Source: Bacillus sp. ISL-37 (GTDB lineage Bacteria > Bacillota > Bacilli > Bacillales > Cytobacillaceae). From it: a DNA stretch of 49,905 nt. The translations under genes and the position numbers were made by a program. The stretch spans positions 220,288-270,192 of the forward strand of contig NZ_JAGGQL010000005.1 of NCBI RefSeq assembly GCF_018613315.1. The letters are read 5' to 3'. The notes under the pieces are model-generated. The model made no database searches. It was not told the DNA's origin and worked only from the letters and a program-made list of their open reading frames with translations. This document shows, piece after piece, positions 17,831-49,905 of the stretch (positions are counted from its first letter, which is position 1; every line of letters starts with the position of its first letter).

Positions 17831-18040
17831 TGGAATGGTACCCTTATGTGGGCTTCTGGTGCGTCATAAGGGTACCTTTCAGCAAGAATAGTGTCCTTAT
17901 GCGCTTTTCTTCCTCTTCATAAGGGTGCCTTTCAGCAGGAATAGTACCCTTATGCATTCTTCTTCCTCTTCATAAGGGTACCTTTCAGCGGGAAAAGCAC
18001 CCTTATGCGCTCTTCTTCCTTTTCATAAGGGTACCTTTAC
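17831..18040. repeat. Tandem array A: four ~53 bp units with inverted arms
   Basis: Units at 17831-17880, 17881-17933, 17934-17986 and 17987-18040. Each has arm ACCCTTATG (up to GGTACCCTTATG), a 16-nt loop and arm CATAAGGGT (up to CATAAGGGTACC), with a linker such as CTTTCAGCAGGAATA between units. Unit 1 has 12-bp perfect arms but a loop unlike units 2-4, with the same loop length. The array lies between the ymdB terminator and spoVS. No coding frame runs through it. Confidence 0.95.
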
Positions 18041-18110
18041 TCCCGCTGCTCCCTGATATTGCCAACTCACACTGAAAACGCCTCCCATAACTAATTCCGT
18101 GCAAATAAAA

Positions 18111-18148
18111 AGACTGCAGAAAAACTCAAATGAGTTCACCTGCAGCCT
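18111..18148 (-). terminator. ymdB terminator
   Basis: On the minus strand AGGCTGCAG ... CTGCAGTCT with an inner ACTC-ATTT-GAGT stem, then TTTTTATTT. Confidence 0.85.
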
Positions 18149-18169
18149 AAAAAAGGTTATCCATATATT

Positions 18170-18967
18170 CTAGTCATAAAAAGGATGGTCTTCATTAACA
18201 AGGATTTTTTGGATTTTCACCGCTTTGCCGGTCTTCTTATCCAAATCTATCAGTACTGCTGATAGCTGATTCCTTCCATCCTTAGCCACTTCGAATCGGG
18301 TTGGGAGACTCGTCATGAACCTTCTAAGCACCGCTTCTTTTTCCACTCCCAATATTCCATCATATGGCCCGGTCATGCCAACGTCGGTCAAATAAGCTGT
18401 TCCAGATGGCAAAATCCTCTCATCTGCTGTCTGTACGTGAGTATGCGTTCCTACTACAGCGGAAACTCTCCCATCAAGATACCAGCCCATGGCCTGCTTT
18501 TCGCTAGTTGCCTCTGCATGGAAATCTACAAAAATGAGGGATGTGCGCTTTCTTGCTTCTTCAATCAATTCATCTGCTTTTTTAAATGGGCAATCAATTG
18601 GCGTCAAGAAAGTACGGCCTTGCAAGTTGATTATTGCCAGCTCTTCCTGGTTAATCTTTAAATAGACAATCCCAGTTCCAGGGACTTCTTCTGGAAAATT
18701 CGCGGGCCTGACCAGATATTTAGCATTATCGATGAATTCAAAAATGTCACGATTATCCCATGCATGGTTTCCTAAAGTTACCGCTTGAGCACCCTGCTCA
18801 AGAAACTGACGATAAATCTTTTCGGTAATCCCTTTACCACTCGCTGCATTCTCACCATTTATGATCGTGACAGTCGGACGAAATTTCCCCTTTAACTTTG
18901 GCAGGTATTCCGTAACCATATCCCTGCCCGGGGAACCTACAACATCCCCTACGAATAAAATTCTCAT
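18170..18967 (-). CDS. ymdB: YmdB metallophosphoesterase (cyclic nucleotide phosphodiesterase)
   Basis: Protein of 265 residues of the TIGR00282 family. Visible metal-binding motifs: GDVVGSPGRD, NGENAASGKG, GNHAWD, DFHAEATSEKQA and GTHTHVQTAD. In B. subtilis YmdB hydrolyses 2',3'-cyclic nucleotides in vitro and affects biofilm versus motility gene expression. The chosen start is the ATG at 18967 after AGGAAAG; an in-frame GTG three codons earlier is possible. Order rny-ymdB-spoVS is conserved. Confidence 0.94.
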   Translation of the reverse strand: MRILFVGDVVGSPGRDMVTEYLPKLKGKFRPTVTIINGENAASGKGITEKIYRQFLEQGAQAVTLGNHAWDNRDIFEFIDNAKYLVRPANFPEEVPGTGIVYLKINQEELAIINLQGRTFLTPIDCPFKKADELIEEARKRTSLIFVDFHAEATSEKQAMGWYLDGRVSAVVGTHTHVQTADERILPSGTAYLTDVGMTGPYDGILGVEKEAVLRRFMTSLPTRFEVAKDGRNQLSAVLIDLDKKTGKAVKIQKILVNEDHPFYD

Positions 18968-19171
18968 TGCATTCACTTTCCTGTCTATAAATTAAGATAT
19001 TTAAGTGTACTCTTCTCAAACACTATCGTATTAAAATCCAGATCTTATGGACCGCCTAGAAATTAAAGCCCCGAACCTTTAACACATGTAAAACAACCAT
19101 TATTAAAATTGTACCATAACATCGAGATTAGAGGAAAATCATCGGAACAGAACTTACCGGACCAATATAAA

Positions 19172-19193
19172 AAGCGGCGCCGAAGCACCGCTT
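19172..19193 (-). terminator. rny terminator (overlaps stop codon)
   Basis: On the minus strand AAGCGGTGC-TTCG-GCGCCGCTT followed by TTT; the first stem base is the last base of the rny stop. Confidence 0.85.
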
Positions 19194-20758
19194 TATTTTG
19201 CATATTCAACTGCCCGTGTCTCACGGATGACTGTTACTTTGATATGTCCAGGATAATCGAGCTCTTCCTCGATTTTCTTACGAATATCACGTGCGAGGCG
19301 GTGTGCCTGCAAGTCATCGATTTGATCAGGCTTAACCATGATCCTGATTTCTCTACCCGCCTGAATTGCGAATGATTTTTCGACTCCTTCATAGGATTCA
19401 GAAATCTCTTCCAGCCTTTCGAGACGGCGGATATAGTTTTCAAGAGCTTCGCTGCGGGCACCAGGCCTTGCAGCTGACAATGCATCAGCAGCAGCAACAA
19501 GTACTGCAATGATCGAAGTTGGCTCAGTATCACCATGGTGGGAAGCAATACTGTTGATAACAACAGGATGTTCCTTGTACTTGGTAGCTAGCTCTACGCC
19601 AATTTCAACGTGGCTTCCTTCTACCTCATGGTCAATCGCCTTTCCGATGTCATGCAGGAGTCCTGCGCGTCGAGCTAATGTCTCATCTTCACCTAACTCA
19701 GCGGCAAGCAATCCGGACAATTGGGCTACTTCCATTGAATGCTTAAGTACATTCTGTCCGTAACTTGTACGATATTTCAAGCGGCCAAGAATTTTAATAA
19801 GATCTGGATGCAGTCCGTGCACTCCCACTTCGAAGGTTGTCTGTTCCCCAACCTCACGAATGTGTTCATCTACTTCACGGCGCGCTTTCTCAACCATTTC
19901 CTCAATTCGAGCCGGATGAATACGTCCATCCTGGACAAGCTTGTCTAGAGCTAGACGGGCTGTTTCACGTCTGATTGGGTCAAATCCAGAAAGGATAACG
20001 GCTTCCGGAGTGTCATCAATAATGAGATCAATTCCCGTCAACGTTTCCAGGGTGCGGATATTCCGTCCCTCACGTCCGATAATACGCCCTTTCATTTCAT
20101 CATTCGGAAGATTTACAACTGATACAGTCGTTTCAGCAACATGATCTGCTGCACATCTTTGAATGGCCAGTGAAAGTACTTCTTTCGCTTTCTTATCGGA
20201 TTCTTCTTTCGCCCTGTTTTCGTTTTCCTTAATCATTAGTGCAATGTCGTGAGCAAGTTCTTGCTCAGTTCGCTCCAAAATGATGGATTTAGCCTCATCA
20301 CGCGTTAAGCCCGAGATGCGTTCTAGTTCAGTCTGCTGATTTCGTACCATCTCGTCCACTTTGCTTTCCATCTCTTCAATATGCTGTTGTCTTTTGGAAA
20401 GAGCGTCATCTTTTTTCTCTAAAAGATTCTCACGTTTGTTCAACGACTCATCTTTACGATCAAGATTCTCCTCTTTTTGCAATAAACGATTTTCTTGTTT
20501 TTGCAGTTCATTTCTTCGTTCACGAATTTCACGCTCTGCTTCTGAACGCAGTTTGTGATTTTCATCCTTAGCCTCCAGCAGGGATTCTTTTTTCATAGCC
20601 TCTGCTTCACGCTTCGCATCTTCAACAATTTGTTCTGCGGCGTTTTTGGCACCTGCAATTTTTGCTTCCGCAACGGATTTACGATAAAAATAGCCAACAA
20701 CTGCACCGACGAATAGGCCAAGCAAAATGGAGATGATTGAAATAATTAGATCCATCAT
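19193..20758 (-). CDS. rny: Ribonuclease Y
   Basis: Membrane-anchored endoribonuclease of 521 residues. One N-terminal transmembrane helix (about 3-25), then a long Glu/Lys/Arg-rich coiled coil (about 30-200), a KH domain with [15 protein letters not shown], and an HD domain with the HD pair in [12 protein letters not shown]. It starts mRNA decay and is a degradosome scaffold in B. subtilis. The start is the ATG at 20758, after AGGAGGTGAAA; an upstream GTG is part of that site. Two overlapping sigma-A promoters lie about 130 bases upstream. Confidence 0.97.
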
Positions 20759-20879
20759 TTTCACCTCCTCTTGCTATGAACTTGTGTTACGTTTTTTAAA
20801 GTGTCGGCATGTACATTGTTACAAGCATCAATATACAGCTCAAATGCTTTTAAACGTTTTTAATACCATGAAAATGTAA

Positions 20880-20922
20880 AATATACATTTTTAATTGTAA
20901 AGCTGTCAAATTTTATTGTCAA
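20880..20922 (-). promoter_or_regulatory. Two overlapping sigma-A promoters of rny
   Basis: Minus strand: TTGACA (20917-20922), 17 bases, TACAAT (20894-20899); and TTGACA (20904-20909), 18 bases, TATATT (20880-20885). Both have a consensus -35, so strong constitutive expression is likely. Confidence 0.65.
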
Positions 20923-21036
20923 GGGTTTGTCCCATAACGGTTCTATTGGTTTGATTAATTATTCAATCAATTGTTATTTTTGTGCTGCGCCGGAAGATTT
21001 TCGTTCCAGGCACTTCACTGTAAGCAAAAACACAAA

Positions 21037-21065
21037 CAAGGTCTCCTAGCTTTCAGGAGACCTTG
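21037..21065 (-). terminator. recA terminator
   Basis: CAAGGTCTCCT / AGGAGACCTTG with a seven-base loop; on the minus strand the tail is TTTGTGTTTTT. Confidence 0.85.
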
Positions 21066-21086
21066 ATCATAAACATAGATAATCTA

Positions 21087-22127
21087 TTAATCCAATTTGA
21101 GTTCTTCCTGATCTTCATCAGTTTCAGTTACAGTGATCTCGCCATCAAGACCATAGTGATTACGGATCTTCTGTTTGACTTCAAGACGAATGGACGGATT
21201 CTCTTTAAGGAAAAGCTTCGCATTTTCCCTTCCCTGTCCAAGACGCTCACCATTATAGGAATACCATGAACCGCTCTTATCGACGATATCAAGGTCTGAA
21301 CCCATGTCGATGATTTCTCCCTCTTGGGAAATCCCTTCACCATACATGATGTCCACTTCTGCTGTACGGAACGGAGGAGCTACCTTGTTCTTAACAACTT
21401 TAATCCTTGTTTTGTTACCAACCATGTCGTTACCCTGCTTCAATGTTTCTGCACGGCGCACTTCAAGACGCACGCTTGAATAGAACTTCAATGCACGGCC
21501 GCCTGGTGTTGTTTCAGGGTTACCGAACATAACACCGACTTTTTCACGAATCTGGTTAATGAAGATTGCAATAGTCTTTGACTTGTTGATTGCACCAGAA
21601 AGCTTACGCAATGCCTGGGACATCAAACGCGCCTGAAGACCAACGTGGGCGTCACCCATCTCACCTTCGATTTCAGCCTTAGGAACAAGAGCTGCAACGG
21701 AGTCAACAACAATAATGTCAATTGCTCCACTTCGCACAAGTGCTTCTGCGATTTCCAAAGCCTGTTCTCCTGTGTCCGGCTGTGAAAGAAGAAGTTCATC
21801 GATATTTACACCAAGCTTCTGTGCATATACAGGATCCAGAGCATGTTCAGCATCAATGAATGCCGCCTGACCGCCATTAGCCTGTACTTCTGCAATCGCA
21901 TGAAGCGCAACAGTTGTCTTACCTGAACTTTCAGGTCCATAGATTTCAACAACACGTCCGCGAGGGTATCCGCCTATTCCCAGTGCGACATCCAGTGCAA
22001 GGGATCCGCTTGGAGAAGTAGAAATCTTTGTGTCTGTCTTCTCTCCTAATTTCATAACTGAGCCTTTACCAAATTGCTTTTCAATCTGTTTTAACGCCAT
22101 ATCTAAGGCAGCTTGACGATCACTCAC
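21087..22127 (-). CDS. recA: Recombinase RecA
   Basis: Protein of 346 residues. Walker A GPESSGKT at 64-71, Walker B region [14 protein letters not shown], loop L2 [26 protein letters not shown] region, acidic tail [10 protein letters not shown]. It forms the strand-exchange filament and triggers LexA self-cleavage. The start is GTG with AAGGAGG upstream. A sigma-A promoter and LexA box are visible upstream, so it is SOS-regulated. In B. subtilis cinA lies just upstream; here the two are split by a dispersed repeat of about 330 bp. Confidence 0.98.
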
Positions 22128-22203
22128 TCAAATTCCTCCTTATTATATAAAAACGAACCAGCATACTGCTTGGCCGCAAATCTCTTATTTAAAGCCTACT
22201 ATT

Positions 22204-22255
22204 ACTATACCTTTTTCCTGGGTGTTTGTCTATTAAAAAATCGAACATTTATTCG
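22204..22255 (-). promoter_or_regulatory. recA promoter with LexA (SOS) box
   Basis: Minus strand: TAGACA (22227-22232), 17 bases, TATAGT (22204-22209). Nine bases upstream of the -35 lies CGAATAAATGTTCG (22242-22255), differing in one core base from the Bacillus LexA consensus CGAAC-N4-GTTCG. This is the usual arrangement for recA. Confidence 0.8.
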
Positions 22256-22384
22256 TTTTTTTTAGAACAAGGGAAATTGAGAAAATTGAATTTCACGTGA
22301 ATGTTTCACTAGTTTTCAAACAGAATATACCCTTTAAAACAGGATTTTCGCAAGAAAACTTTCTATTTAAGAACCGGATAAAGC

Positions 22385-22733
22385 AAAGAACAAAAAGCGC
22401 AAGCGCCTCGTTCAGCCCCGACAAGCGCTGCCCGCCTTAAAACGCCACGTCCTGTGGCTGGCGGGTCTAGCACATCGTGTGCCACGGAGGGCCGCCCAAT
22501 GAATTCGTTCTTTGACTTCAATGGGCGGACCGAAATCGGAAAGTATAGCCGACTGTCCAGAAACGCAGAAACTGGAGACTCCGACAAAGAAGCGCTTTTT
22601 GCTTCTGCCGGCGGAGTTGAAGTTTCGGAGTTTCTAGGAGGCGACACTAGACAAGCGACTCGAGGGGCTAGGCGCTGAAGCTGGATTAAGAAAACCACAT
22701 GCAGTTATCCACACCTAAATAATTTTATAATTT
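22385..22733 (+). repeat. Dispersed structured intergenic repeat with DnaA box (full copy)
   Basis: GC-richer than its surroundings. Left end AGCGCAAGCGCCTCG... (near 22397) and right end ...GGGGCTAGGCGCT (near 22663-22676) are partly inverted: AGCGCCT and AGCCCC appear in both when read toward the centre. Internal stems include AGAAGC / GCTTCT (near 22586-22607) and GGAGACTCCGACA regions. Right flank carries TTATCCACA, a perfect DnaA box, at 22705-22713. The last ~115 bases match 1-124 of the window. Open frames across it are artefacts of GC content. Similar elements are common between Bacillaceae genes as far as I recall; no transposase is seen, so a MITE-like or RNA-structured repeat is likely. 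Confidence 0.8.
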
Positions 22734-22748
22734 CCTTAACAAAAGTAA

Positions 22749-22774
22749 AACACGGAAACTATTGCTTCCGTGTT
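22749..22774 (-). terminator. cinA terminator
   Basis: On the minus strand AACACGGAA ... TTCCGTGTT followed by TTACTTTT; overlaps the end of cinA. Confidence 0.8.
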
Positions 22775-24009
22775 CCTGATAATCTATTAATTATAATCTG
22801 GCAGCCAAACTTTACAGCCCTCTTCCTGATCGCGGCGCGTGAGCCACTCAGGTTAAGTTTTTCTGAATGGACTGGTTGGCCTTTTACGTGTAGCCCGATA
22901 AATACAGTCCCTGGAGGATGACCTTCCAGGCTGTCGGGACCAGCTACTCCGGTAAAACCGATGCCGATGTCAGAGTTGGTAAGCGTTGCAGCATTCATTG
23001 CTAGCTCTTCCGCACATACACTGCTGACAGCCCCATACTTCTCAATTGTTTCCGGGTTAACCTTAACAAGTCCTATTTTGGCTTCATTCGAGTAACAAAC
23101 TAAGCCGCCTTTGAAAAGGCTGCTTGCACCGGAGACTGAAGTCAATTCCTGCTGGAACATTCCGCCTGTCAGGCTTTCAGCCGCTGATACCGTCAAGTTT
23201 TTGTTTTTCAATAGTTTTGAAAGCTCGATCATTAACGAAGTTTCATCGTAACCATAAAAATACTCACCGACTCTGTCCATGATTTCTGCTTCCACTCTAT
23301 CAATCAATGCTTGTGCTGTGTCTTTGGAATCATCCCTGGCCGTAAGCCTCAGTGTAACTTCCCCGTCACCAGCCAAAGGGGCGATGGTTGGATTGCTCTG
23401 CTGGTCAATTAAATCTTCTATTTCCGATTCAAGGGCTGCCTCGCCAATCCCAAAAAACCGCAGGACTCTCGATTCAATTTTAGCCTGATTGCCGGTCATG
23501 CTTTCTATAGCCGGCTGGCCATATTTCAAAAACATTGGCTCCATCTCGGATGGTGGTCCTGGCAAAAGCATGAACTTGTTGTCTGCTGTTGCCAGGAACA
23601 TTCCCGGTGCCATGCCGTGTTCATTTTTCAGGACGGTTGATCCCTCAATCACGAGAGCTTGCTTCCTGTTATTTTCAGTCATTACCCTGTTCGTTTTTTC
23701 AAAATACAATTCGATGGACCTCATCGCTTCTTCATCAAGAACAAGCTGTTTTCCAAGCTGCCCAGCAATTGTATCTTTTGTCAGGTCATCTTTAGTTGGA
23801 CCTAAACCGCCAGTTAAGATAATCAGGTCTGCGCGTTCCCGTGCAATTCCCATCGCGTTCTTCAATCGATCAGGATTATCCCCCACGACCGTATGGTAGA
23901 AGACATTGATTCCCAGGTCGGCAAGCTGCCTGGAAAGGAATCTGGCGTTTGTATTGACGATTTGCCCAAGGAGCAATTCAGATCCCACTGCAATGATTTC
24001 GGCTTTCAT
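22759..24009 (-). CDS. cinA: CinA, competence/damage-inducible protein
   Basis: Protein of 416 residues, the same length as in B. subtilis. N-terminal MoCF-like domain (about 1-170) with [14 protein letters not shown] and [15 protein letters not shown]-terminal amidohydrolase domain (about 255-410) with [10 protein letters not shown] and GFTGVAGP, the nicotinamide-nucleotide deamidase signature. It belongs to NMN recycling and is linked to competence through co-expression with recA. Start ATG 24009 after AGGGGGAC. Confidence 0.95.
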
Positions 24010-24033
24010 ATCTTGTCCCCCTGACAAAATCAA

Positions 24034-24612
24034 TTATTTGGAATTACGGAAAACTTGCATATTTTTAGCGAAGTAATCCCATCCAGACCAAATTGTAAAG
24101 ATCATCGCCACCCATAATGCAATATCTGCAAACGGGATTGAGAATGCTTCAAAAATGATATTGTGCAACAACAACGCGGAAATTGCCACTGTTTGTGCCC
24201 ACATTTTGATTTTGCCAGGCATTTTTGCTGCAACAACCTCACCACCGCCTGCGAGCAGTAAACGAAGTCCTGTGACGGCAAACTCGCGGCTGATAATTAT
24301 GATGACAATCCATGCAGGGGCATACCCTAGTTCAACCAACACAATCAATGCAGAAGATACAAGCAGTTTATCCGCGAGGGGGTCAAGAAATTTCCCAAGA
24401 TTGGTAACTAAATTGTGCTTTCGTGCCAGATAGCCGTCAACCCAGTCTGTCACAGACGCAAATATATAAATTAGCGCTCCAACAAAATGAGTGACCGGCA
24501 TGGTTGTACCTAGAAGGGAAATTTCCCCCCACGAAAATGGGACAATCATAATGATCATGAATAACGGAATCAATAAAATTCGTGAAACCGTAATTTTATT
24601 TGGCAAGTTCAT
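24034..24612 (-). CDS. pgsA: CDP-diacylglycerol--glycerol-3-phosphate 3-phosphatidyltransferase
   Basis: Membrane enzyme of 192 residues with about five hydrophobic helices. The CDP-alcohol phosphotransferase motif DG-x2-AR-x8-G-x3-D-x3-D is complete, beginning at DGYLARK (about 62) and ending in FLDPLAD. It makes phosphatidylglycerol phosphate, an essential step for anionic lipids. The ATG at 24612 follows GGAGG; the upstream in-frame ATG would put that site inside the gene. Just upstream of cinA (24 bases). Confidence 0.97.
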   Translation of the reverse strand: MNLPNKITVSRILLIPLFMIIMIVPFSWGEISLLGTTMPVTHFVGALIYIFASVTDWVDGYLARKHNLVTNLGKFLDPLADKLLVSSALIVLVELGYAPAWIVIIIISREFAVTGLRLLLAGGGEVVAAKMPGKIKMWAQTVAISALLLHNIIFEAFSIPFADIALWVAMIFTIWSGWDYFAKNMQVFRNSK

Positions 24613-24723
24613 ATACTTTTCCTCCAAGGTGAAAAATTGCGAAGGGCAAATAATCCGCCTTCAATTTTTTATGTAGTATGTACACCGAAATAGCCATCAC
24701 CAGAGATGACTATTAAAAGTTTA

Positions 24724-24751
24724 GCCCGTATAAACAATAGTCCATACGGGC
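24724..24751 (-). terminator. rodZ terminator
   Basis: GCCCGTAT / ATACGGGC stem with a long loop; minus-strand tail TAAACTTTTAAT. Confidence 0.7.
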
Positions 24752-24765
24752 AATTGAATTAAAGC

Positions 24766-25650
24766 TTACTTAACAAAATTGATGGTTATATTCTGTGTCG
24801 TAGCATCTGAAGGGGAAATTGCATATTCCAGCTTCTGATCATTTACATATATTTCGGTATCTGGAGCAAAGCCGACTTTGATCAAAGCCTGAGTATCGTT
24901 TGTCAGGTCAGCGGTCTCGCTGACTTTGACATCTTTATTCAACTCTTCACCAAAATAAGTCTTGCCTGACCCGTTTTTAACACTGACCCATGTCCTTCCT
25001 AAAGAAACAACCTTCACGACGAACTTGTCTGTATTTTTTAATTCATAAACAGTGTTGCTGCCGCTGTTCGAAGCTACGGTAAGCTCCTGCGCAGGAGTTT
25101 CAGGCTCGGCTTCCTCTTCAACTGGTTCCTCTTCATCAGCAACATCTTCTTCCTCGCCTGTACCCTCGTCACCGCTATCATCTGTAAACTCTTCAGTCTC
25201 TTCAAAGTTCGGCTTGCTCTTGTCTGTATTTGCAGGCTGGTCAGCTCCATCACCTGCACTCTTGACAATAAGATACCAAACGAGGGCAATCGCACCGATC
25301 ATGAATATGGCAATTAGTATTTTCGGTAAGAAGTCTAAGACTTTCGAAGTCTCCGGAGAGATGCTTTTCCTCGACTGGACACGGGAAAGCTGGTCAGGCA
25401 GCTCTTCGTTGTATGTAGATGGAATTTCATTTTTGTGCTGCTCAAACAGCTGTTCTGGATCAAGCCCGACAGCTTCAGCATATTGCTTGATGAATGCACG
25501 GACATAAAACTTTCCTGGCATCATTGAATAATTGCCCTCTTCAATACCAAGAAGGTAGCGCTTCTGTATTTTCGTGATGGACTGCAGTTCGTCCAGGCTG
25601 AGGCCTCTAGCTTCACGTGCTTCCTTTAAAATATTTCCTAACTCAGTCAC
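24766..25650 (-). CDS. rodZ: RodZ (YmfM), cell-shape protein with HTH domain
   Basis: Protein of 294 residues. N-terminal Xre-type HTH (about 1-75: TELGNILKEAREARGLSLDELQ; ITKIQKRYLLGIEEGNY), one transmembrane helix (IAIFMIGAIALVWYLIV near 115), a very acidic linker (about 145-185) and a C-terminal DUF4115 domain outside the cell. It links MreB filaments to the wall synthesis machinery. The start is GTG 25650 with GGAAGGTG upstream. Conserved position beside pgsA. Confidence 0.94.
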   Translation of the reverse strand: MTELGNILKEAREARGLSLDELQSITKIQKRYLLGIEEGNYSMMPGKFYVRAFIKQYAEAVGLDPEQLFEQHKNEIPSTYNEELPDQLSRVQSRKSISPETSKVLDFLPKILIAIFMIGAIALVWYLIVKSAGDGADQPANTDKSKPNFEETEEFTDDSGDEGTGEEEDVADEEEPVEEEAEPETPAQELTVASNSGSNTVYELKNTDKFVVKVVSLGRTWVSVKNGSGKTYFGEELNKDVKVSETADLTNDTQALIKVGFAPDTEIYVNDQKLEYAISPSDATTQNITINFVK

Positions 25651-25670
25651 GATAACACCTTCCAATACTG

Positions 25671-32833: not shown

Positions 32834-32834
32834 C

Positions 32835-41459: not shown

Positions 41460-41558
41460 ATCCTTATGCTCCCTTCAGGCATGATAATTTTAGTATGAAC
41501 ATCATCATCAATTTCATTCCAGAGCGAAAAGAGACATAAACATTTATAATTAAAAAAC

Positions 41559-41575
41559 ACTGACATTGAGCCAGT
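41559..41575 (-). terminator. rnjB terminator
   Basis: ACTGGC / GTCAGT stem with one mismatch; minus-strand tail GTTTTTT. Confidence 0.65.
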
Positions 41576-41587
41576 ACTTTATCGTGC

Positions 41588-43258
41588 TTATTTAACTTCC
41601 ATTATGATTGGCATGATCATTGGACGGCGTTTTGTTTTTTCATATAGGTATTGGCTCAGTGAATCACGTATATCTTGTTTTAGACTGTTCCAATCGAATG
41701 ACTCTTTATTAGTATTTTTCTCTACGACCTCTTTTACCAGGGTAGTTGAATCCGCCATCAGCTTTTCTGATTCACGTACATAGACGAAACCGCGGGATAT
41801 AATTTCAGGACCGGCAGCAATTTTTCTGTCTGCTTTATTCAGTGTGACGACTACAATTAAAACACCGTCCTGCGAGAGCAGCCTGCGATCACGTAGAACA
41901 ATATTGCCTACATCCCCTACTCCGATTCCGTCAATCAATGTATTCCCTGCCTGTACCTTCTCTGTGGACTTTAGTTTTCCACCAGAAATTTCAATAACGT
42001 CACCGCGGTCCGGGATGTAAATATTCTCTTCCAAAATTCCGCATGACTGCGCTAACTTTTTGTGGGCCTTGAGCATTTTGTATTCACCGTGAACAGGAAT
42101 GAAAAACTTTGGGTTCATCAAATTGATCATGAATTTCAGTTCTTCCTGACTTCCATGGCTTGAAACCTGAACATTCTTTTTGCTTGATACTACGTTTGCT
42201 CCGGCTCGGTAAAGCATATCCATTGTCTTAAAAATAAATACTTCACTTCCCCTTAATGGAGATGCAGCAAACAATACTGTGTCCCCTTCCTGGATATTCA
42301 CCTGGGGATGTACTTGTTTAGCCATTTTTTGAAGGGCTTCAATTGGCTCGCCCTGATTTCCCGTGGTTAAAATAACTACCTGATTATCTTCATAGTTCTC
42401 CAAATCATTTACCGATATAATCAAGTCCTTTTCAACCTGTATGTAGCCAAGTTGTAATGCTATGTCATAGACACGTTTCAGGCTTTTCCCTGCCACAGCT
42501 ACCTTACGGGCATTTGCCGCCGCACTGTCAAAGAGATGCTGGATTCTGTTTAGGTCAGAGGCAAAGCAGGCAGCAATGATTCTGCCCTGTGCATTATGAA
42601 ATACATTAGACAACTCAGAAACCACGGTTGATTCAGATGGAGTATATCCTGGTCTCTCAGCCTCTGTACTGTCAGAAAGCAGGCAGAGAACTCCTTTTTC
42701 ACCAATTGCGGCCATCTTGCCTATTTCAGGCTTGTATAGTGGGGCAGCAGCCTGATCGAATTTAAAATCCCCGGTATGTACGATTGCACCTTCTGAGGTA
42801 TTGATGCTGATGCCAACTGAATCAGGGATACTGTGATTGGTCTTGAAGAAGGAAACAGAAACACTGTCGAAATTCAAAACAGTATCTGCATTGATTTCAT
42901 GAAAGTCAACTGTACCAGAGAATTCCTGTTCTTTCATCTTCTCCTTCGCAAGGGCAATAGTAAGCTTTGTTCCATAAACAGGAACATTTATTTTTCTCAA
43001 AACATAAGTTAATGCGCCAATGTGGTCTTCATGCCCATGCGTCAGTAGAATTGCCTTTACCCTTTCACTATTAGAAGTTAAATAAGAAAAATCGGGAATG
43101 ACAATATCGATCCCCAGCATCTCATCTTCGGGGAACATTAATCCTGCATCAACCACAAAAATATCACCGTCCACTTCGGTGACGTACATATTCTTACCGA
43201 TTTCCCCTACTCCACCAAGTGCGATGATTTTTATATTTTCATTTTTCTTCGTATTCAA
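41588..43258 (-). CDS. rnjB: Ribonuclease J2
   Basis: 556 residues of the beta-CASP metallo-beta-lactamase family. Metal site HGHEDHIG (about 74-81), then HTGDFKFDQ and beta-CASP motifs (LLSDSTEAERPGYTPSE; GNQGEPIEAL; SSHGSQEELK). C-terminal MIMPIIMEVK. By position between dapA and tepA it is RnjB. Here the zinc motif looks complete, while I recall the B. subtilis J2 motif as degenerate. Start TTG 43258 after AGGAGGAG. It works with RNase J1 and RNase Y in mRNA turnover. Confidence 0.9.
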   Translation of the reverse strand: MNTKKNENIKIIALGGVGEIGKNMYVTEVDGDIFVVDAGLMFPEDEMLGIDIVIPDFSYLTSNSERVKAILLTHGHEDHIGALTYVLRKINVPVYGTKLTIALAKEKMKEQEFSGTVDFHEINADTVLNFDSVSVSFFKTNHSIPDSVGISINTSEGAIVHTGDFKFDQAAAPLYKPEIGKMAAIGEKGVLCLLSDSTEAERPGYTPSESTVVSELSNVFHNAQGRIIAACFASDLNRIQHLFDSAAANARKVAVAGKSLKRVYDIALQLGYIQVEKDLIISVNDLENYEDNQVVILTTGNQGEPIEALQKMAKQVHPQVNIQEGDTVLFAASPLRGSEVFIFKTMDMLYRAGANVVSSKKNVQVSSHGSQEELKFMINLMNPKFFIPVHGEYKMLKAHKKLAQSCGILEENIYIPDRGDVIEISGGKLKSTEKVQAGNTLIDGIGVGDVGNIVLRDRRLLSQDGVLIVVVTLNKADRKIAAGPEIISRGFVYVRESEKLMADSTTLVKEVVEKNTNKESFDWNSLKQDIRDSLSQYLYEKTKRRPMIMPIIMEVK

Positions 43259-43309
43259 GTCTACGCTCCTCCTATGCTGTTATATCTCCGTCCGTGACCA
43301 ATTAATAAC

Positions 43310-43339
43310 ATTATACTTGATGACAGAAAATCTTGACAA
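43310..43339 (-). promoter_or_regulatory. Sigma-A promoter of rnjB
   Basis: Minus strand TTGTCA (43334-43339), 18 bases, TATAAT (43310-43315), about 50 bases upstream of the start codon. Confidence 0.55.
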
Positions 43340-43453
43340 CTTAATATCCTTAGCTATTTTTTGGCTGACAGAAACCCGATTTTTCATTAATCTGCTTTTA
43401 TCCTTTAGAACCAGCATTAGTGTTTATTTTACATTTTAGGTCAGGAGGGTGGC

Positions 43454-43802
43454 AAAATGTCTAAATAACTGTACTTAATAGACATTTCGGGCCGTGTGTT
43501 CTTTCAAAATGTCCTGGAAAATGCATTTAATGGACATTTCGGAGCATGAGCACTTTCAAAATGTCCAAGAAGCATTATTTATTAGACATTTCAGAGCATG
43601 AGCACTTTCAAAATGTCCAAGAAACTGTGTTTATTAGACATTTCAGAGCATGAGCACTTTCGAAATGTCCAAGAAGCATTATTTATTAGACATTTCGGAG
43701 CATGAGCACTTTCAAAATGTCCAAGAAGCATTATTTATTAGACATTTCGGAGCATGAGCACATTTTATATGTTCAATAAGGAAGACATAATGACATTTCG
43801 GA
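43454..43802. repeat. Tandem array B: seven 52-bp units with inverted arms
   Basis: Units start at 43454, 43506, 43558, 43610, 43662, 43714 and 43766 (last one degenerate). Each has arm AAATGTC, a 19-nt loop, arm GACATTT and a 19-nt linker such as CGGAGCATGAGCACTTTCA. So arms alternate in direction every 26 bases. Unit 1 has 9-bp arms AAATGTCTA / TAGACATTT and unit 2 has AAATGTCC / GGACATTT, a compensatory change. The array lies between the dapA terminator and the rnjB promoter. Confidence 0.95.
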
Positions 43803-43840
43803 AATTCTATAGGTCAAAAATTGCTTTTTTTACATTTCAA

Positions 43841-43865
43841 AGGCCAACCCCGAAAAGGTTGGCCT
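43841..43865 (-). terminator. dapA terminator
   Basis: AGGCCAACC / GGTTGGCCT stem with a seven-base loop; minus-strand tail TTTG. Confidence 0.8.
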
Positions 43866-43873
43866 AACACAAT

Positions 43874-44740
43874 TTATTGAAATAGTTTAGCTACTGCGGA
43901 TCTTTCTTGTTCAGTCAATGGCACCATTGGCAAGCGTACAGATCCAACATCAAGTCCTTTTAGCTGCAATGCCGTTTTGACTGGTGCAGGGCTTGGAGCC
44001 GCGAAGAGTCCTTGCATGATTGGCAGCAGGCGCTGGTGCAGTTTCGCTGCGTCCGCATTTCTTCCGCTGAAGAATGCATCGACCATAGCTTGCATTTCAT
44101 TTCCAATTACATGTGAAGCTACAGATACAATTCCAGTACCGCCGATTGCAAGCACTGGCAGAGTCAATCCATCATCTCCACTGTATAGAAGGAAATCGTC
44201 CGGTGTATTCGCGATGATTTGCGTCATGGCGTTCAAGTCACCGCTCGCTTCTTTTACAGCGACAATGTTCGGGATTTCAGCAAGCCTGATGATTGTTTCT
44301 GGCAGAATGTTGACTACTGACCTGCCCGGAATATTATACACCATTACTGGCAGTGAGGTAGCTGCAGCAGCTGCCTTAAAATGCTGGTAAAGTCCCTCTT
44401 GGTTTGGCTTATTATAGTATGGTGCTACGATCATGATCGCGTCCGCACCAATCTCTTCTGCTTTTTTAGTCAGTTCGATGGTAGCATAAGTGTTGTTGCT
44501 GCCCGTTCCGGCAATGACGGGAATCCTCTTGTCAACAACTTTCACGACGTGCTGGAATAATGCGATTTTCTCTTCTTTAGATAGAGTCGGGGATTCACCT
44601 GTTGTCCCTGCAACAACAAGCGAATCTGTCCCGTTATCGATCAAATGGTTTACTAGCTGGGTCGTTTTATTGAAATCAATGTGACCTTTGTGGTCAAATG
44701 GGGTCACCATTGCTGTGGATACTCTTCCGAATTGAACCAT
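43874..44740 (-). CDS. dapA: 4-hydroxy-tetrahydrodipicolinate synthase
   Basis: 288 residues. Schiff-base lysine in IVAVKEASGD (about 163) and catalytic Tyr in VYNIPGRS; GTTGESPTL near 44 is the signature loop. It condenses aspartate semialdehyde with pyruvate at the start of the lysine/DAP branch; its product also feeds dipicolinate. ATG after GAGGAGTG. Last gene of the asd-dapG-dapA cluster. Confidence 0.97.
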   Translation of the reverse strand: MVQFGRVSTAMVTPFDHKGHIDFNKTTQLVNHLIDNGTDSLVVAGTTGESPTLSKEEKIALFQHVVKVVDKRIPVIAGTGSNNTYATIELTKKAEEIGADAIMIVAPYYNKPNQEGLYQHFKAAAAATSLPVMVYNIPGRSVVNILPETIIRLAEIPNIVAVKEASGDLNAMTQIIANTPDDFLLYSGDDGLTLPVLAIGGTGIVSVASHVIGNEMQAMVDAFFSGRNADAAKLHQRLLPIMQGLFAAPSPAPVKTALQLKGLDVGSVRLPMVPLTEQERSAVAKLFQ

Positions 44741-44798
44741 TCCTGTTCACTCCTCTTCTGAAAGGCTTCCGGCTTCAGAGGCTGGAAGCAAAATCTTT

Positions 44799-46043
44799 TT
44801 AAATATCTTGACGCTCGAAATCTGCTGTTTCCTCTTCGAGTTGGAAGGCATCATGCAACGCATTTACTGCCTTTCCTAAATCCTCTTGTTTGACCAATAC
44901 CCAAATGGTTGTATGGCTGTCAGCAGACTGAAGGATGCGGATCCCTTTTTCAGATAAAGCTGTAACAATTTTTGAGGTTACACCCGGGACTCCTGCCATT
45001 CCTGCTCCGACAACCGATACCTTCGCACAATGTTTCTCAATTTGCGGAGTGTGTCCCAATCCTTCTAATACTCTTAAAGCCCGGTCCGTCATTTCGTCTA
45101 AGACAGTGTAGACCACTCCATTTGGAGAAATATTAATAAAATCTACGCTGATATTTTCATTGGCCATTGCCTTGAAAACTTCAGATTGGAGATTGTATTG
45201 GTCTTTTTTTGCAAAAACCTTTATTTGGCTTACATTTGAAACATGCGCAATTCCTGTTACAGGTCGTTCCTTAATGTCAGTTCCTTTATTTTCACGATTA
45301 AGGGTAGTAACCAGCGTGCCAAGTCCTTCCGAATAGGTAGACCTGATCCTGATCGGAACTTTTGCCTGCATGGCGATCTCAACGGCACGAGGGTGGATTA
45401 CCTTCGCCCCCTGGTAAGCCATATTGCAAACTTCGGTATATGTTACCACGGAAAGTGGCCGTGCGTTATCAGCAATTCTCGGATCAGCAGTCATGATTCC
45501 TTCGACATCGGTAAAGATGTCAATCCACTCCGCGTTTAACGCTGCGCCAAGTGCTGCTGCCGATGTGTCACTGCCGCCCCTGCCGATTGTTGTCACGTCC
45601 CCATTTTTTGCAGCACCCTGGAATCCTGCAACGACGACTACGTCGACCTGATCCAGTTCTCTCAGCAATCGGTCGCACTTCATATCCAGAATTCTTGCGT
45701 TCGTATGCTCACTATTTGTCCTGAATCCCGCCTGGGCACCTGTAAGCGCAGCCGCATTAATGCCATTATCAAGCAGCATATTGGTAAAAACGACACTTGA
45801 AATCGTTTCTCCGCACGATAGCAGCAGATCATGCTCCCGTTTGCTGATCTTGCTGTCACTTCCTCCAAGCAGGCTGAGGAGAGTGTCAGTAGCGTATGGA
45901 TCTCCCTTCCTGCCCATCGCAGAAACGACTACCACCGCTTTGTACCCATCCGCGATTGCCTTCTTAATATGACTCATCGCTTGGATGCGGCTTTGTTCAT
46001 CTCGGACAGATGTACCGCCAAATTTTTGAACGATTATTTTCAT
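44799..46043 (-). CDS. dapG: Aspartokinase I (DapG)
   Basis: 414 residues. Kinase domain begins IIVQKFGGTSVRDE (KFGGTSV), with TIGRGGSDTSAAALGAAL near 157. Two C-terminal ACT domains (about 265-400) carry feedback control, in B. subtilis by meso-diaminopimelate. It phosphorylates aspartate at the start of lysine, methionine and threonine synthesis; Asd next to it makes the following step. ATG after GAGGTG. Confidence 0.95.
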   Translation of the reverse strand: MKIIVQKFGGTSVRDEQSRIQAMSHIKKAIADGYKAVVVVSAMGRKGDPYATDTLLSLLGGSDSKISKREHDLLLSCGETISSVVFTNMLLDNGINAAALTGAQAGFRTNSEHTNARILDMKCDRLLRELDQVDVVVVAGFQGAAKNGDVTTIGRGGSDTSAAALGAALNAEWIDIFTDVEGIMTADPRIADNARPLSVVTYTEVCNMAYQGAKVIHPRAVEIAMQAKVPIRIRSTYSEGLGTLVTTLNRENKGTDIKERPVTGIAHVSNVSQIKVFAKKDQYNLQSEVFKAMANENISVDFINISPNGVVYTVLDEMTDRALRVLEGLGHTPQIEKHCAKVSVVGAGMAGVPGVTSKIVTALSEKGIRILQSADSHTTIWVLVKQEDLGKAVNALHDAFQLEEETADFERQDI

Positions 46044-46084
46044 CGTAACACCTCAGAATTTCTGTCATTAAATCAATTATGTGT

Positions 46085-47134
46085 TTACTTTACTATTCCA
46101 AGCTTTACAAGACTTTCAGCAATCTGGACTGAGTTCCATGCTGCACCTTTTAACAGGTTGTCAGAAACGACCCACATATGGAAGCCTTTGTCATTGTCTA
46201 GATCCTTCCTGATTCTGCCGACAAAAACGTCATTTTTGCCAACGCAGAATGCAGGCATTGGATACAGCTGCTGATCAGGATCGTCCTGCAGGACAACTCC
46301 AGGTGCGTCAGTCAATAGTTCTTTTACTTCAGCTGCAGAAACACCCTCCTGGCCAATTTCAACATACACCGATTCTGAATGACCTGTGCCTACAGGCAGA
46401 CGTACGCATGTTGCCGCTACCTGCAGTCCAGGCATGTGCATGATTTTCTTAGTTTCATTGATCATCTTCATTTCTTCATACGTAAAACCGTTATCTACGA
46501 ATGTATCGATCTGTGGAATGGCGTTGAATGCAATCTGGTAGTGCTTATCCGCTGACTTGACCGGAAGGATCTTTGGTTCGTATTCTTCTCCGTTCAGGAT
46601 TGCCTGAGTCTGCTCCTCCAGCTCCTCGACAGCAGCAGCACCTGCACCAGATACTGCCTGGTAAGTGGATACGATAATCTTTTCCAGGCCGAACTTTTTC
46701 CGTAACGGCTCCAATGCAACGACCATCTGGATCGTAGAGCAGTTCGGGTTAGCGATGATTCCATTATGTGAATGCAGATCCTCCTCATTTACTTCAGGCA
46801 CGACAAGTGGAGTGTTTTCATCCATACGGAATGCACTTGTGTTATCCACAACGATTGCACCGCGTTTGACTGCTTCTGGTGCCAGTTCCTTGGAAACACT
46901 TCCTCCTGCGCTGAACAAGGCGATATCTACACCTTCAAAGCTTTCTGGCTTGGCTTCCTGTACTGTCAGCTCTTCGCCTTTATATTGGACCTTTGTACCA
47001 GCTGATCTTGATGATGACAGCAATAATAGCTCAGACACAGGGAAGTCCCTGCTCTCAAGCGTCTGGATCATCTGCTGCCCTACTGCTCCTGTTGCTCCAA
47101 CTACTGCTACACGGTAACCTTTTCTCTCTGACAT
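46085..47134 (-). CDS. asd: Aspartate-semialdehyde dehydrogenase
   Basis: 349 residues. NADP-binding [12 protein letters not shown] at the N terminus, active-site cysteine in NPNCSTIQ (about 130), [11 protein letters not shown], and C-terminal [10 protein letters not shown] region. It makes aspartate semialdehyde for DapA and dipicolinate. The ATG at 47134 follows GGAAGGGG; 15 extra upstream codons lack a ribosome binding site. Confidence 0.96.
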
Positions 47135-47504
47135 TGCTGTTTCCCCTTCCACTACCATTATCGTTTTAATACCCCGCATATTTGCTGAGGCTGATTAACC
47201 ATAAGTATAAAACGGCGGTCTATAGAAAAACCGCCTAGTATATTATCCTATATTTTATCATAATCAATCATTAAGAAAAGAAACATTTTGCTTCACTGCC
47301 GGAGAAAAGCATTTCCAAGTAAAAATATGCTGTAAAATTGACCGTTTTCACTAAACTGGGGCTATCCGGAACCACTTTGTCTCTACTCACTTAGAGTCAA
47401 TGCTCTTTTACAAGATGCCTCTGAACAGATAATGCTTTTCTTGCGCAAATTCAATTTTCGCTCCAAAAAGCAACAATGGTTTCGAAAAGAGCCAGATATT
47501 TGCA
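47135..47504. other. Intergenic region between dpaB and asd
   Basis: Contains the dpaB terminator (47214-47235). Beyond it 47236-47504 is AT-rich spacer downstream of dpaB, with no gene, repeat or strong promoter recognised. An asd promoter must lie in 47140-47213, but none is convincing. Confidence 0.5.
47214..47235 (-). terminator. Terminator between dpaAB and asd
   Basis: GGCGGT / ACCGCC stem with minus-strand tail GTTTTAT. It would insulate dpaAB from the biosynthetic asd-dapG-dapA genes. Confidence 0.65.
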
Positions 47505-48101
47505 TTAGTTATCCTTATAGCGCTCGACTAATACTGGCTGTAACTGTTTTCCATTCATTGCCTCAACGATTGTTTCGGAAAGCATCTCCATTCTAGCAAC
47601 CATTGAGTTTGGCTTTTTCACTGGATCATCCTGGCCAAAAGGAATCATGTAAATATTCTTGGTTGCCATCAGCCTCATAAGGTTTACGCCGTTAAGCCCC
47701 AATGCATCGTTAGTAGAAATACCAAGGACAACTGGCTTTTGGTTCCTTAATGTTGCTTTCGCAGCCATCAAAACTGGCGAATCTGTCATTGCATTTGCAA
47801 ACTTGCTCATGGAGTTACCTGTCAGCGGCGCAATGACCATGCAATCCAGAGGGATTTTTGGACCTAGAGGTTCTGCCTTTACAATCGAATCAATCACTTT
47901 ATTACCTGTTAGCTCTTCAATCCGCTGTACCCAATCTTCACCTTTTCCAAAACGTGTTTCTGTATTTTTAACAGTGAATGTGACAACAGGTAAAACTTCA
48001 GCGCCTGCATTCACTAGCTTTTCAATTTCCGGAAAAACAGCGTCGTACGTACAATGTGAGCCTGTTAATCCAAAACCAATCTTCCTACCTTTTAAACTCA
48101 T
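47505..48101 (-). CDS. dpaB: Dipicolinate synthase subunit B (SpoVFB)
   Basis: 198 residues of the flavoprotein-like family (LKGRKIGFGLTGSHCTYDAVFPEIEKLV; MVIAPLTGNSMSKFANAMTDSPVLMAAKATLRN). Flavin-type fold, together with DpaA makes dipicolinic acid for spore heat resistance in the mother cell. Its ATG overlaps the dpaA stop (ATGA). Confidence 0.96.
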   Translation of the reverse strand: MSLKGRKIGFGLTGSHCTYDAVFPEIEKLVNAGAEVLPVVTFTVKNTETRFGKGEDWVQRIEELTGNKVIDSIVKAEPLGPKIPLDCMVIAPLTGNSMSKFANAMTDSPVLMAAKATLRNQKPVVLGISTNDALGLNGVNLMRLMATKNIYMIPFGQDDPVKKPNSMVARMEMLSETIVEAMNGKQLQPVLVERYKDN

Positions 48102-49000
48102 ACTTCTTTCTCCTTTCGATTTATAAAGTCTTCCATAAGCAGCTGAGAAAGAACATTCGCCAAAATTTGTCCCGCTGTTTTCGGGGCAACGATTCCTGGC
48201 AATCCAGGTGCAAGCAAGGCTTTAATTCCACGTTTTTCCGCATAGCGAAAATCCGTTCCACCTGGTTTGGATGCAAGGTCGATGATCAAAGTATGAGCAG
48301 GCATCCTCGAAATGACGGAGGCAGTAACGATTTGATGAGGAATCGTATTGATGCAAATATCGGAATCAGAGACCGCCTTGCCTATATCGGATAAAAGGAA
48401 CGGCTCTAATCCCATTTCCGTAATCCTTGCAATGTGTTCACTTTTCCGGGCTCCTACCTTCACTTTTGCTCCAAGGGCATGGAAGGTTCTCGCGACACTC
48501 ATCCCAACTCTTCCAAGACCGAGAACAGCTACCCTTGAGCCATGGATGGTGAAATCCGTATGTTGGATTGCCATCATGATCGTTCCTTCGACCGTTGGGA
48601 TCGAGTTATATATTGCAACATCATCACGAGCAAATAACTGTACGAGTTTCCTGTTTGCTTGATTTGTAATCCCAGTTAAATAGGAATTACTGATGCCTGA
48701 ATAAACTGTGCAATGTTCAAGAGTCTTGCCAAGCATTTCTTTTATAAGGACTACTTTTTCATTCGAGAAAATGGTCTCGACCTGGCCCTCCATACTCGTA
48801 CCTGGTACAGGCAGGATCAAAGCATCCTGTACGGAAAAATCAACTTCATCTATCTTTTCTTTTGAGGCACCTGTAAAAGCATGGTCCAACTGCTCGAAGC
48901 CTATTAAAGAAAGCTTTGCATCAAGCTCTGTCAGCTTGCGAATAATCTCCAGCTGTCTCGCATCACCGCCGATAACCGCGATTTGCATTCCTGTCAGCAT
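48098..49000 (-). CDS. dpaA: Dipicolinate synthase subunit A (SpoVFA)
   Basis: 300 residues. N-terminal domain begins MQIAVIGGDARQLEIIRKL; Rossmann NAD(P)-binding motif VAVLGLGRVGMSVARTF (about 155-175), and C-terminal LLAPGLPGIVAPKTAGQILANVL. It oxidises the DapA product to dipicolinate. The start ATG 49000 has GAAGGTGA at eight bases; an upstream in-frame ATG 17 codons earlier is less fitting. A sigma-K-like promoter lies about 70 bases upstream. Confidence 0.96.
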   Translation of the reverse strand: MLTGMQIAVIGGDARQLEIIRKLTELDAKLSLIGFEQLDHAFTGASKEKIDEVDFSVQDALILPVPGTSMEGQVETIFSNEKVVLIKEMLGKTLEHCTVYSGISNSYLTGITNQANRKLVQLFARDDVAIYNSIPTVEGTIMMAIQHTDFTIHGSRVAVLGLGRVGMSVARTFHALGAKVKVGARKSEHIARITEMGLEPFLLSDIGKAVSDSDICINTIPHQIVTASVISRMPAHTLIIDLASKPGGTDFRYAEKRGIKALLAPGLPGIVAPKTAGQILANVLSQLLMEDFINRKEKEV

Positions 49001-49066
49001 GAGAACAATCACCTTCTTTTCCATTAATCCTGGAATATATATTTCATTCAAATTGAACTACTTCAA

Positions 49067-49095
49067 CATCATATGTATCAGACTTGGAATAGGTG
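49067..49095 (-). promoter_or_regulatory. Candidate sigma-K promoter of dpaAB
   Basis: Minus strand: CACC (49092-49095), 16 bases, CATATGATG (49067-49075), close to the sigma-K pattern mACm-N16-CATAnnnTA. B. subtilis spoVF is sigma-K controlled, which supports it. Confidence 0.5.
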
Positions 49096-49113
49096 AGTTT
49101 TCCATAAAAGAAA

Positions 49114-49136
49114 AGCGCCGGCCATTGGCCAGCGCT
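49114..49136 (-). terminator. Second terminator after ymxH
   Basis: AGCGCTGGCC-AAT-GGCCGGCGCT with minus-strand tail TTTTCTTTTAT; lies just upstream of the dpaA promoter. Confidence 0.8.
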
Positions 49137-49212
49137 GAAAATTCATGAATGATGCAAAGGGTTCATCTGTTGAATTAAAATCAAAAATACCCAAATACAG
49201 AGGCAAAAAAAT

Positions 49213-49236
49213 AAAGCCGGCTTTGCGCCCGGTTTT
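49213..49236 (-). terminator. ymxH terminator (overlaps stop codon)
   Basis: AAAACCGG / CCGGCTTT stem with minus-strand tail ATTTTTTTG. Confidence 0.65.
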
Positions 49237-49480
49237 ACTCTTCGTCCTCTGGGATGTCAATGATAATCATGTCTGATCCTATTTTTTTGATATGCTTCCA
49301 TGGAACCCTTACTTCTCCTGATTGTTTGCGGAGGCCGAACCACTTTAAAGACGGAATGATCAAGGCCTCTATTTGTCCGGTTCTTTCATTGATTTCCAAA
49401 TCTGTCTGACCAAGTACGCCCAATCTTTCTGCCCTCTTTACATCGACGATTTCTTTTCCTCCAAGTTCACTTAATTTCAT
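49235..49480 (-). CDS. ymxH: YlmC/YmxH-family sporulation protein
   Basis: 81 residues, PRC-barrel-like: MKLSELGGKEIVDVKRAERLG, then LEINERTGQIEALIIPS and WKHIKKIGSDMIIIDI. The family has members linked to sporulation; no biochemical role is known. ATG after GGGGGAGGG. Position next to dpaA matches ymxH of B. subtilis. Upstream lies tandem array C. Confidence 0.92.
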   Translation of the reverse strand: MKLSELGGKEIVDVKRAERLGVLGQTDLEINERTGQIEALIIPSLKWFGLRKQSGEVRVPWKHIKKIGSDMIIIDIPEDEE

Positions 49481-49596
49481 GATGCCCTCCCCCTGTCACT
49501 TTGTCCTTATTCTATATGTATCAATCCGGGAAGTTTTTTAGAATACATATCCGTGAAAAAAAAGCGGTATTGTTGCCAAGAATCTACTGTTATTTA

Positions 49597-49905
49597 GACA
49601 GCTTTTCAGGAGTACAAGCTCAACCTGTCATGATTCCTTCGTTTTCTTGACAGCTTTTCTGCAGCAGAGACCAAAGCTGTCATGATTCCTTCGTTTTCTT
49701 GACAGCCTTTCTGCAGCAGAGCCCAAAGCTGTCATGATTCCTTCGTTTTCTTGACATCCTTTCTGCAGCAGAGACCAAACCTGTCAGGATTCCTTCGTTT
49801 TCTTGACAGCTTTTCTGAAATAGAGATCAAAGCTGTCATGATTCCTTTGTTTTCTTGACAGCTTTTCTGGTGTAGAGGACAAAGCTGTCATGATTCCTTC
49901 ATTTT
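49597..49905. repeat. Tandem array C: at least six 52-bp units with inverted arms
   Basis: Units start at 49597, 49649, 49701, 49753, 49805 and 49857; the last is cut by the window end. Each has arm TGACAGCTTT, a 15-nt loop such as TCTGCAGCAGAGACC, arm AAAGCTGTCA and a 17-nt linker such as TGATTCCTTCGTTTTCT. Units 1 and 4 have degenerate arms. The array lies upstream of ymxH. No coding frame runs through it. Confidence 0.95.

Follow-up and report, generated by a model that had tools for sequence, protein, structure and literature searches.

What might three tandem arrays have in common when their units are of nearly the same length and their arms differ? The question is raised by a 49,905-nt stretch of the genome of Bacillus sp. 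ISL-37 (G000:C55:220288-270192; called the window below, and the frame for all of its coordinates). The genome, G000, comprises 4.74 Mb in 62 contigs; the dapA product encoded in the window is 98% identical to its counterpart in Mesobacillus selenatarsenatis SF-1, and "the genus" below means Mesobacillus. Tandem Repeats Finder (TRF) reports exactly three long-period arrays in the window, A, B and C, the sole other row being a period-9 repeat of 20 bases. A first-pass annotation had described three arrays of 52-53-bp units, in agreement with the TRF periods of 53, 52 and 52 bp, and had suggested a single general mechanism behind them. We find that arrays with different arms have in common a core register whose N19/N25 spacing stays fixed from family to family and from genus to genus, and we lean, with modest confidence, towards reading the 52-bp arrays as helix-phased DNA sites bound by a putative protein.

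Inverted arms and a common core register

The genus yielded 97 unique arrays with periods of 50-54 or 104 bp, one of which was left out because it holds fewer than two whole units. In the remaining 96, many of which are orthologues and therefore not independent, the best inverted arms of the consensus unit were compared with those of 40 shuffles. The arms reached p <= 0.05 in 76 arrays, with a mean z of 3.8 (7.2 for array A, locus L235), and stayed above p 0.05 in 20; the paired inverted arms first described in the window are thus borne out. This mismatch-tolerant test supersedes earlier shuffles of exact arms in single units, which were weak (many units had p > 0.05). The 15-19-nt loop and linker first proposed do not extend to other families, where arm-to-arm gaps range from 3 to 34 (for example 7/25, 11/23, 15/17, 19/19, 16/15 and 3/34). 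What is constant across families is the spacing from core to core.

The core, N-[A/C]-C-[A/C], begins at base 10 from the symmetry centre on both sides; it is mostly GACA, and also ACCC, GCCC, GACC and TACC. When units were placed on their symmetry centre without the use of any core, the centre was a base in 84 of the 96 arrays and fell between bases in 12. Where the arms reached p <= 0.05 and a centre base ranked first (71 arrays, 142 arms), G[AC]C[AC] begins at base 10 in 102 arms; no other base exceeds three. With ACCC, TCCC and TACC included, base 10 has 125 starts; base 9 has 22, which are probably cases of TACC read within TACCC. When cores are also used in choosing the centre, 87 of the 96 arrays fit on both arms, seven on one and two on neither; among shuffled units, both fit in 189 of 1920. 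The core pairs of the 87 arrays are GACA/GACA (55), ACCC/ACCC (10), GACC/GCCC (8), GCCC/TACC (6), ACCC/GCCC (5) and three others seen once each. Arrays A (ACCC) and B and C (GACA) are placed on one frame despite their differing arms, because their cores are equidistant from the centre. The claim that the window arrays share no sequence needs correcting: their arms are not entirely unrelated, B and C having the GACA core in common.

Spacing is rigid, following core'-N19-core within a unit and N25 or N26 between units. Among the 55 arrays with GACA cores, 339 of 360 neighbouring TGTC-Nx-GACA pairs are separated by x = 19; for GACA-Nx-TGTC, x = 25 holds in 352 of 386. The 15 arrays of ACCC/GCCC type show the matching inner spacing in 75 of 77 cases and an outer spacing one base longer in 70 of 79. 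The arrays in these spacing counts were preselected by consensus register; the symmetry-only count above and the pattern searches of the window and of other genomes are free of that preselection. Searching both strands of the window for TGTC-N19-GACA-N25-TGTC gave 20 matches, every one in B or C, and none in 100 shuffles.

For other genomes the search pattern was TGTC-N19-GACA-N25-TGTC-N19-GACA, which specifies cores and spacing only and covers the GACA class alone. Exact matches occur in 69 of 397 genomes of the order, spread over 30 of 135 genera. All ten genus genomes drawn have the pattern, at 63 to 584 places (506 in G000); beyond the genus it is found in 59 of 387 genomes of the order, at a single place in seven of the 59. 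A control shifted by one base (N18/N26) matched one place in one of the 397 genomes, and a backward control gave one place, in G013, among the matches listed. In a sample of 398 genomes of the phylum, G000 was the sole match, with 0 of 391 outside the order; a plasmid search for relatives of array B gave no match. Published repeats offer a further comparison: among 25 consensus repeats of other species, judged by reading the printed arms on the best centre, ten show N[AC]C[AC] in each arm at base 10 (eight of these with arm p < 0.1), three are one letter off in one arm, three have the core at base 9 and one fits on its second-best centre.

Candidate readings: protein sites, minisatellites or RNA stems

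Variation among units was counted in 70 arrays, each with four or more units and a core on either side, taking bases 4-17 on each side of the centre as half-sites. Units deviate from their consensus at 4.4% of half-site positions (649/14616) and at 14.8% of the rest (1855/12528), which is 3.3 times lower in the half-sites. The half-sites are less variable in seven of seven family groups, with ratios of 1.9 (F5/6/9), 2.1 (F7), 3.0, 3.1, 3.9, 4.7 and 4.9. Bases 12 (1.6%) and 13 (1.8%) vary least. Base 8 is weakly kept in F1, F2, F4 and F7 but not in F3, and shows the lowest symmetry among bases 4-9 in a cross-genus sample.

This footprint bears on the possibility that the arrays are self-propagating minisatellites without host use, in which slippage and recombination would make the copies, and half-sites would be kept for amplification or by template switching that copies arm onto arm. 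Neutral slippage is not favoured, since it predicts even variation along the unit and the same footprint recurs in all seven groups. Arm copying leaves unexplained both why non-complementary A/C and A/T differences persist between the two arms and why many genera have a single core register. Higher-order units of 104 or 156 bp in some arrays speak for a minisatellite, as do two features of placement given in the next section; on the whole we consider it unlikely. The idea of one shared design is supported and gains a sharper form, the fixed core register across families and genera. The replication or repair product that the first-pass annotation offered as one source of it, taken as a pure by-product, does not predict lower variation in the half-sites.

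In the protein-site reading, each unit would consist of two inverted 14-bp half-sites (bases 4-17 on either side of the centre base) with the core at bases 10-13, and a putative DNA-binding protein, or related proteins, would bind each half-site pair as a dimer. Half-site centres would lie 21 bp apart in the unit and 31 bp apart between units, two plus three helical turns for a total of 52 bp; at these distances every half-site would be on the same face of the helix, which could let bound proteins align along the array. Families vary in arms and spacers and keep core, spacing and period, and arrays gain and lose copies and appear or disappear at intergenic sites between species. In favour of protein sites are the core at base 10 located by symmetry without help from the cores, the rigid spacing, the near absence of the pattern once shifted by one base, the low-variation footprint, arm differences that break pairing and the lack of a G-T excess. 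We infer that the use to the cell may be nucleoid shaping or insulation of neighbouring transcription units.

The inverted arms may also be viewed as RNA hairpins: transcribed units would fold into stems and act as small RNA, as a protein sponge or in protecting mRNA ends. Arm complementarity far above chance and the co-variation of arms across genera are in its favour. Against it, differences between the two arms at bases 4-17 in the genus comprise 206 transversions and 68 transitions (206/274), and base 11 is A in one arm and C in the other in 17 of 87 arrays; such differences break pairing. Whether A or C stands at base 11, the major groove retains an amino group. In 57 arrays lying between co-directional genes, the arm pairs read on the sense strand are 3445 Watson-Crick, 185 G-T, 273 A-C and 1081 others, with no excess of G-T (G-U wobble); if the antisense strand is the RNA, the G-T and A-C figures are swapped, and by array 29 have more A-C, 20 have more G-T and 8 are ties. 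An Rfam search of the window gave no match. The annotation had listed helix-phased protein sites and hairpin arrays side by side; the protein sites fit best and the hairpins are disfavoured, and we would assign the hairpins a low probability.

Several points nevertheless weigh against protein sites. No protein binding the repeats is known or was found, and a genome with several arm families calls for more than one protein or for a single tolerant one. Phasing on one face depends on taking the half-site centre at 10.5, and the core-to-core distances are 23 and 29 bp. The register does not accommodate eight of the 25 repeats published for other species. At 41 hand-picked cross-genus sites the arms are identical at 180 of 246 positions, with about 100 (maximum 134) for shuffled partners, and 29 of the 66 arm differences are transitions; both a dimer site and a stem would be expected to give such co-variation. 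Lastly, extracts of one paper report that 52-nt arrays of B. coagulans are covered by transcript reads (PMC8625621), which counts in favour of RNA hairpins; transcription of those arrays fits the DNA-site and RNA readings alike.

A wider proposal would make the 52-nt families of the order one system: one protein family would recognise N-[A/C]-C-[A/C] as the core of paired, inverted half-sites at two-turn and three-turn spacing, with arms free to drift or be exchanged and array geometry kept, and arrays with a 20-21-bp period would be its direct-repeat form. We put this forward tentatively, as possible and on the doubtful side.

Frequency, placement and history of the arrays

A sample of G000 (849,905 bp; the window plus 40 stretches, mostly from two contigs; TRF score 60) contains 72 TRF arrays, of which 36 have a period of 51-53 or 104 bp; 18 of the 24 other non-coding arrays have a period of 20-21 or 41-42. 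This is not the broad range of periods without inverted arms that the first-pass annotation had named as the sign of a chance resemblance. Scaled up from 36 in 850 kb, G000 would hold an extrapolated total of about 200 arrays of the 52-bp class. In 20 evenly placed samples of G010, a complete genome of the genus, 16 of 29 TRF arrays are in this class, compared with 0 of 9 in 327 kb from two genomes outside the genus. The class is uneven within the genus (no arrays in 100 kb of G007, two in 119 kb of G011). TRF found no 50-54-bp array in a thin sampling of 340 kb from the genomes of B. infantis, P. kribbensis and Bacillus sp. J33; the dapA loci of these three do carry 52-53-bp arrays. The 52 arrays of G000 and G010 make up nine arm families, defined by motifs picked by eye, with three arrays outside any family. 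According to a home-made gene caller, 48 of the 52 overlap no gene and the other four overlap by 1-31%.

Table 1. Arrays, sites and neighbouring genes in the window, with examples of the 20-21-bp class from other loci
Feature	Position	Strand	Unit and copies	Context	Basis
Array A, family F4 (ACCC core)	17832-18038		53 bp x 3.9	gap between ymdB and spoVS-like gene	TRF; family by motif
Array A site, 27 bp, one core altered to GTCC	17870..17896				sequence and core positions
Array A site, 27 bp, core'-N19-core	17923..17949				core positions
Array A site, 27 bp, core'-N19-core	17976..18002				core positions
Metallophosphoesterase gene, which we take to be ymdB	18170..18976	-		upstream neighbour of array A	TIGR00282
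RNase J family gene, presumably rnjB	41588..43258	-		downstream neighbour of array B	NCBIfam TIGR00649; name from gene order
Array B, family F3 (GACATTT arms, GACA core)	43475-43761		52 bp x 5.5	gap between dapA and rnjB	TRF; arms tested at locus L212 (array B)
Array B, six TGTC-N19-GACA sites, 27 bp each	43458..43744		52-bp steps		starts 43458, 43510, 43562, 43614, 43666, 43718
dapA	43874..44740	-		upstream neighbour of array B	NCBIfam TIGR00674
81-aa gene, assumed to be ymxH	49235..49480	-		adjoins array C	open reading frame; full-length orthologues in 20 genus genomes
Array C, family F2 (TTGACAGC arms, GACA core)	49625-49905		52 bp x at least 5.4	beside ymxH	TRF
Array C, five TGTC-N19-GACA sites	49626..49860				starts 49626, 49678, 49730, 49782, 49834
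20-21-bp class, examples	L289:13609-13882, L122:13251-13410, L303:11077-11188, L145:12818-12923, others

The copy number of array C is a lower bound because the window end cuts the array and a run of Ns interrupts it immediately beyond base 49905 (L001:1847 onward), with one further site after them; at the Ns the assembly probably left part of the array unresolved or collapsed.

Array-bearing gaps were counted among 418 gaps of about 150-3000 bp between predicted genes. Arrays occupy 44 of them: 12 of 55 convergent, 29 of 288 co-directional and 3 of 75 divergent gaps. By Fisher tests against the rest, arrays are commoner in convergent gaps (p 0.008) and rarer in divergent ones (p 0.04). Their presence in convergent gaps speaks against RNA hairpins, and their scarcity in divergent gaps is as expected of tolerated insertions, a point for the minisatellite.

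The annotation's placement of the arrays between a terminator and the following promoter did not hold up as a general feature. Terminators stand at 25 of 53 array-facing gene ends and 165 of 345 elsewhere, so there is no enrichment. The terminator scan found none near array B or array C and none between the gene and array A, its one hit near A lying beyond the gap that holds the array; a laxer scan gave one at A. A promoter-like site (11/12) lies between array B and rnjB, one of five such sites found compared with 2.6 in shuffles, and an inverted repeat can be seen by eye directly 3' of dapA in the 20 sequences compared. Tandem terminators, considered because arms followed by CTTTTC look hairpin-like, have no support from the facing-end rates, the G-T test or the terminator scans.

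Orthologous gaps show how the arrays change. TRF finds F3 arrays in six of 20 genomes in the dapA-rnjB gap, F7 arrays in two and none in 12; inspection of these 12 by eye shows F3-like sites in one, single or decayed F7-like units in five and nothing similar in the remaining six. In the ymdB gap, 12 of 21 genomes carry F4 arrays, with 2.0 to 17.5 copies, and the ymxH gap has F2 arrays at eight of 20 loci, with 3.2 to 14.0 copies, some of these loci being cut by contig ends and the window's by Ns. No family besides F4 and F2, respectively, was found in the ymdB and ymxH gaps of the compared genomes. Loci thus keep or swap families and vary in copy number. Differences between species in presence, family and copy number at the same gap are also what a minisatellite would give.

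In the co-directional setting, F3 units are oriented along transcription at six of seven independent loci (all but array B), whereas the orientation of F2 units opposes it at four of five. These counts are a point for RNA hairpins, with replication direction not separated from transcription. Replication may also set unit orientation: judged by eye among the matches listed for complete genomes, F2 and F3 hits mostly change strand from one chromosome half to the other, with exceptions, and genes do likewise; at L295, a locus among lagging-strand genes, unit orientation follows transcription.

A few further observations were made. The ymdB orthologue has one in-frame TAA inside its match in G008 (L241) and two separate matches in G004 (L255/L256). 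The record JAGGQZ010000001.1 (L030), titled Chryseobacterium sp. ISL-80, encodes a dapA product 94% identical to the window's Mesobacillus protein and is probably mislabelled. A second intergenic class consists of direct repeats with a 20-21-bp period and many cores (TTATTGGCGA, CAACTGGTATTA, GTGGTCGATA and more), three distinct ones lying adjacent to one another at L289. A separate GC-rich repeat of about 122-125 bp occurs in two genera, at L136:1496-2085 (G010) and L192:17346-17738 (B. infantis), and sequence resembling it by eye lies in the dapA-rnjB gap of G013 (L229). Adjacent tandem repeats of 21, 30, 42 and 84 bp at L128:8506-10371 fall in predicted coding sequence for a repetitive protein.

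Comparison with known systems

The window arrays are unlike arrays of clustered regularly interspaced short palindromic repeats (CRISPR) in that their spacers are not unique and recur from unit to unit in each array. REP and BIME elements are clustered intergenic palindromes. A REP-like origin, with mobile palindromes spread by a Y1 (IS200/RAYT-type) transposase, would suit arrays that are intergenic, palindromic, dispersed and of several families. The arrays here differ in their strict 52-bp period, and Pfam Y1_Tnp (PF01797) has no match in G000, G014 or G015 (three of 21 genus genomes), all of which bear arrays; a Y1 transposase is therefore not required, and we regard such spread as very improbable. 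G010 has five Y1 matches at several places, probably recent copies because their scores are equal.

Plasmid iterons and centromere repeats are short, helix-phased repeated sites along which protein lines up on DNA. The arrays may resemble them in helical spacing: the spacing within the period of 52 is rigid, and would divide into 21 + 31 bp with the half-site centre at 10.5. They differ in being chromosomal, in their number (about 200 per genome by extrapolation), in their inverted pairs and many families, and in having no known protein.

STAR elements of Staphylococcus aureus, as described in extracts of PMC3532100, are likewise intergenic, with a conserved short element, locus-specific spacers, variable copy number and no known function; they differ in being a 14-bp direct repeat with one consensus and at least 40 bp between copies. 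The 14-bp STAR consensus shows no enrichment in the window, with two matches (at most two mismatches) compared with 2.6 expected, neither within an array.

The closest system is the class of Bacillus tandem repeats with a constant length of 52 nt and variable sequence reported by Subirana and Messeguer, M. selenatarsenatis included (PMC8161180, here from extracts), and the window arrays belong to it. Table 4 of that paper gives B. selenatarsenatis 49 arrays of 51-53 nt and 30 of 20-21 nt. The likeness extends to the 51-53-nt period (36/72 here), several dissimilar families per genome (nine), non-coding location (48/52) and the 20-21-nt class alongside; with respect to the authors' four-repeat detection limit, B and C have more than five copies and A has 3.9 by TRF. 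In the extracts, the authors describe the repeats as lacking sequence conservation and note that one repeat often contains both a short signal and its reverse, and they propose protein polymerisation or small RNA, with nucleoid shaping among their suggestions. The difference is that we find a shared core at base 10 where no conservation is stated there.

What is new here is the cross-genus core register, the half-site footprint, the sequence-free pattern with its shifted control and the history of three orthologous loci. No earlier account of the N19 core register came up in a literature search whose reach did not include the J Bacteriol 2020 paper of Subirana and Messeguer. The published puzzle is why some bacteria hold many repeats of constant length and variable sequence. 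To it the fixed core register brings a direct test, a probe for which N18/N26 spacing and mutated cores are exact controls, and a sequence-free pattern for genome surveys; the pattern sorts genomes into bearers and non-bearers, and can be used to seek a protein that co-occurs with the arrays.

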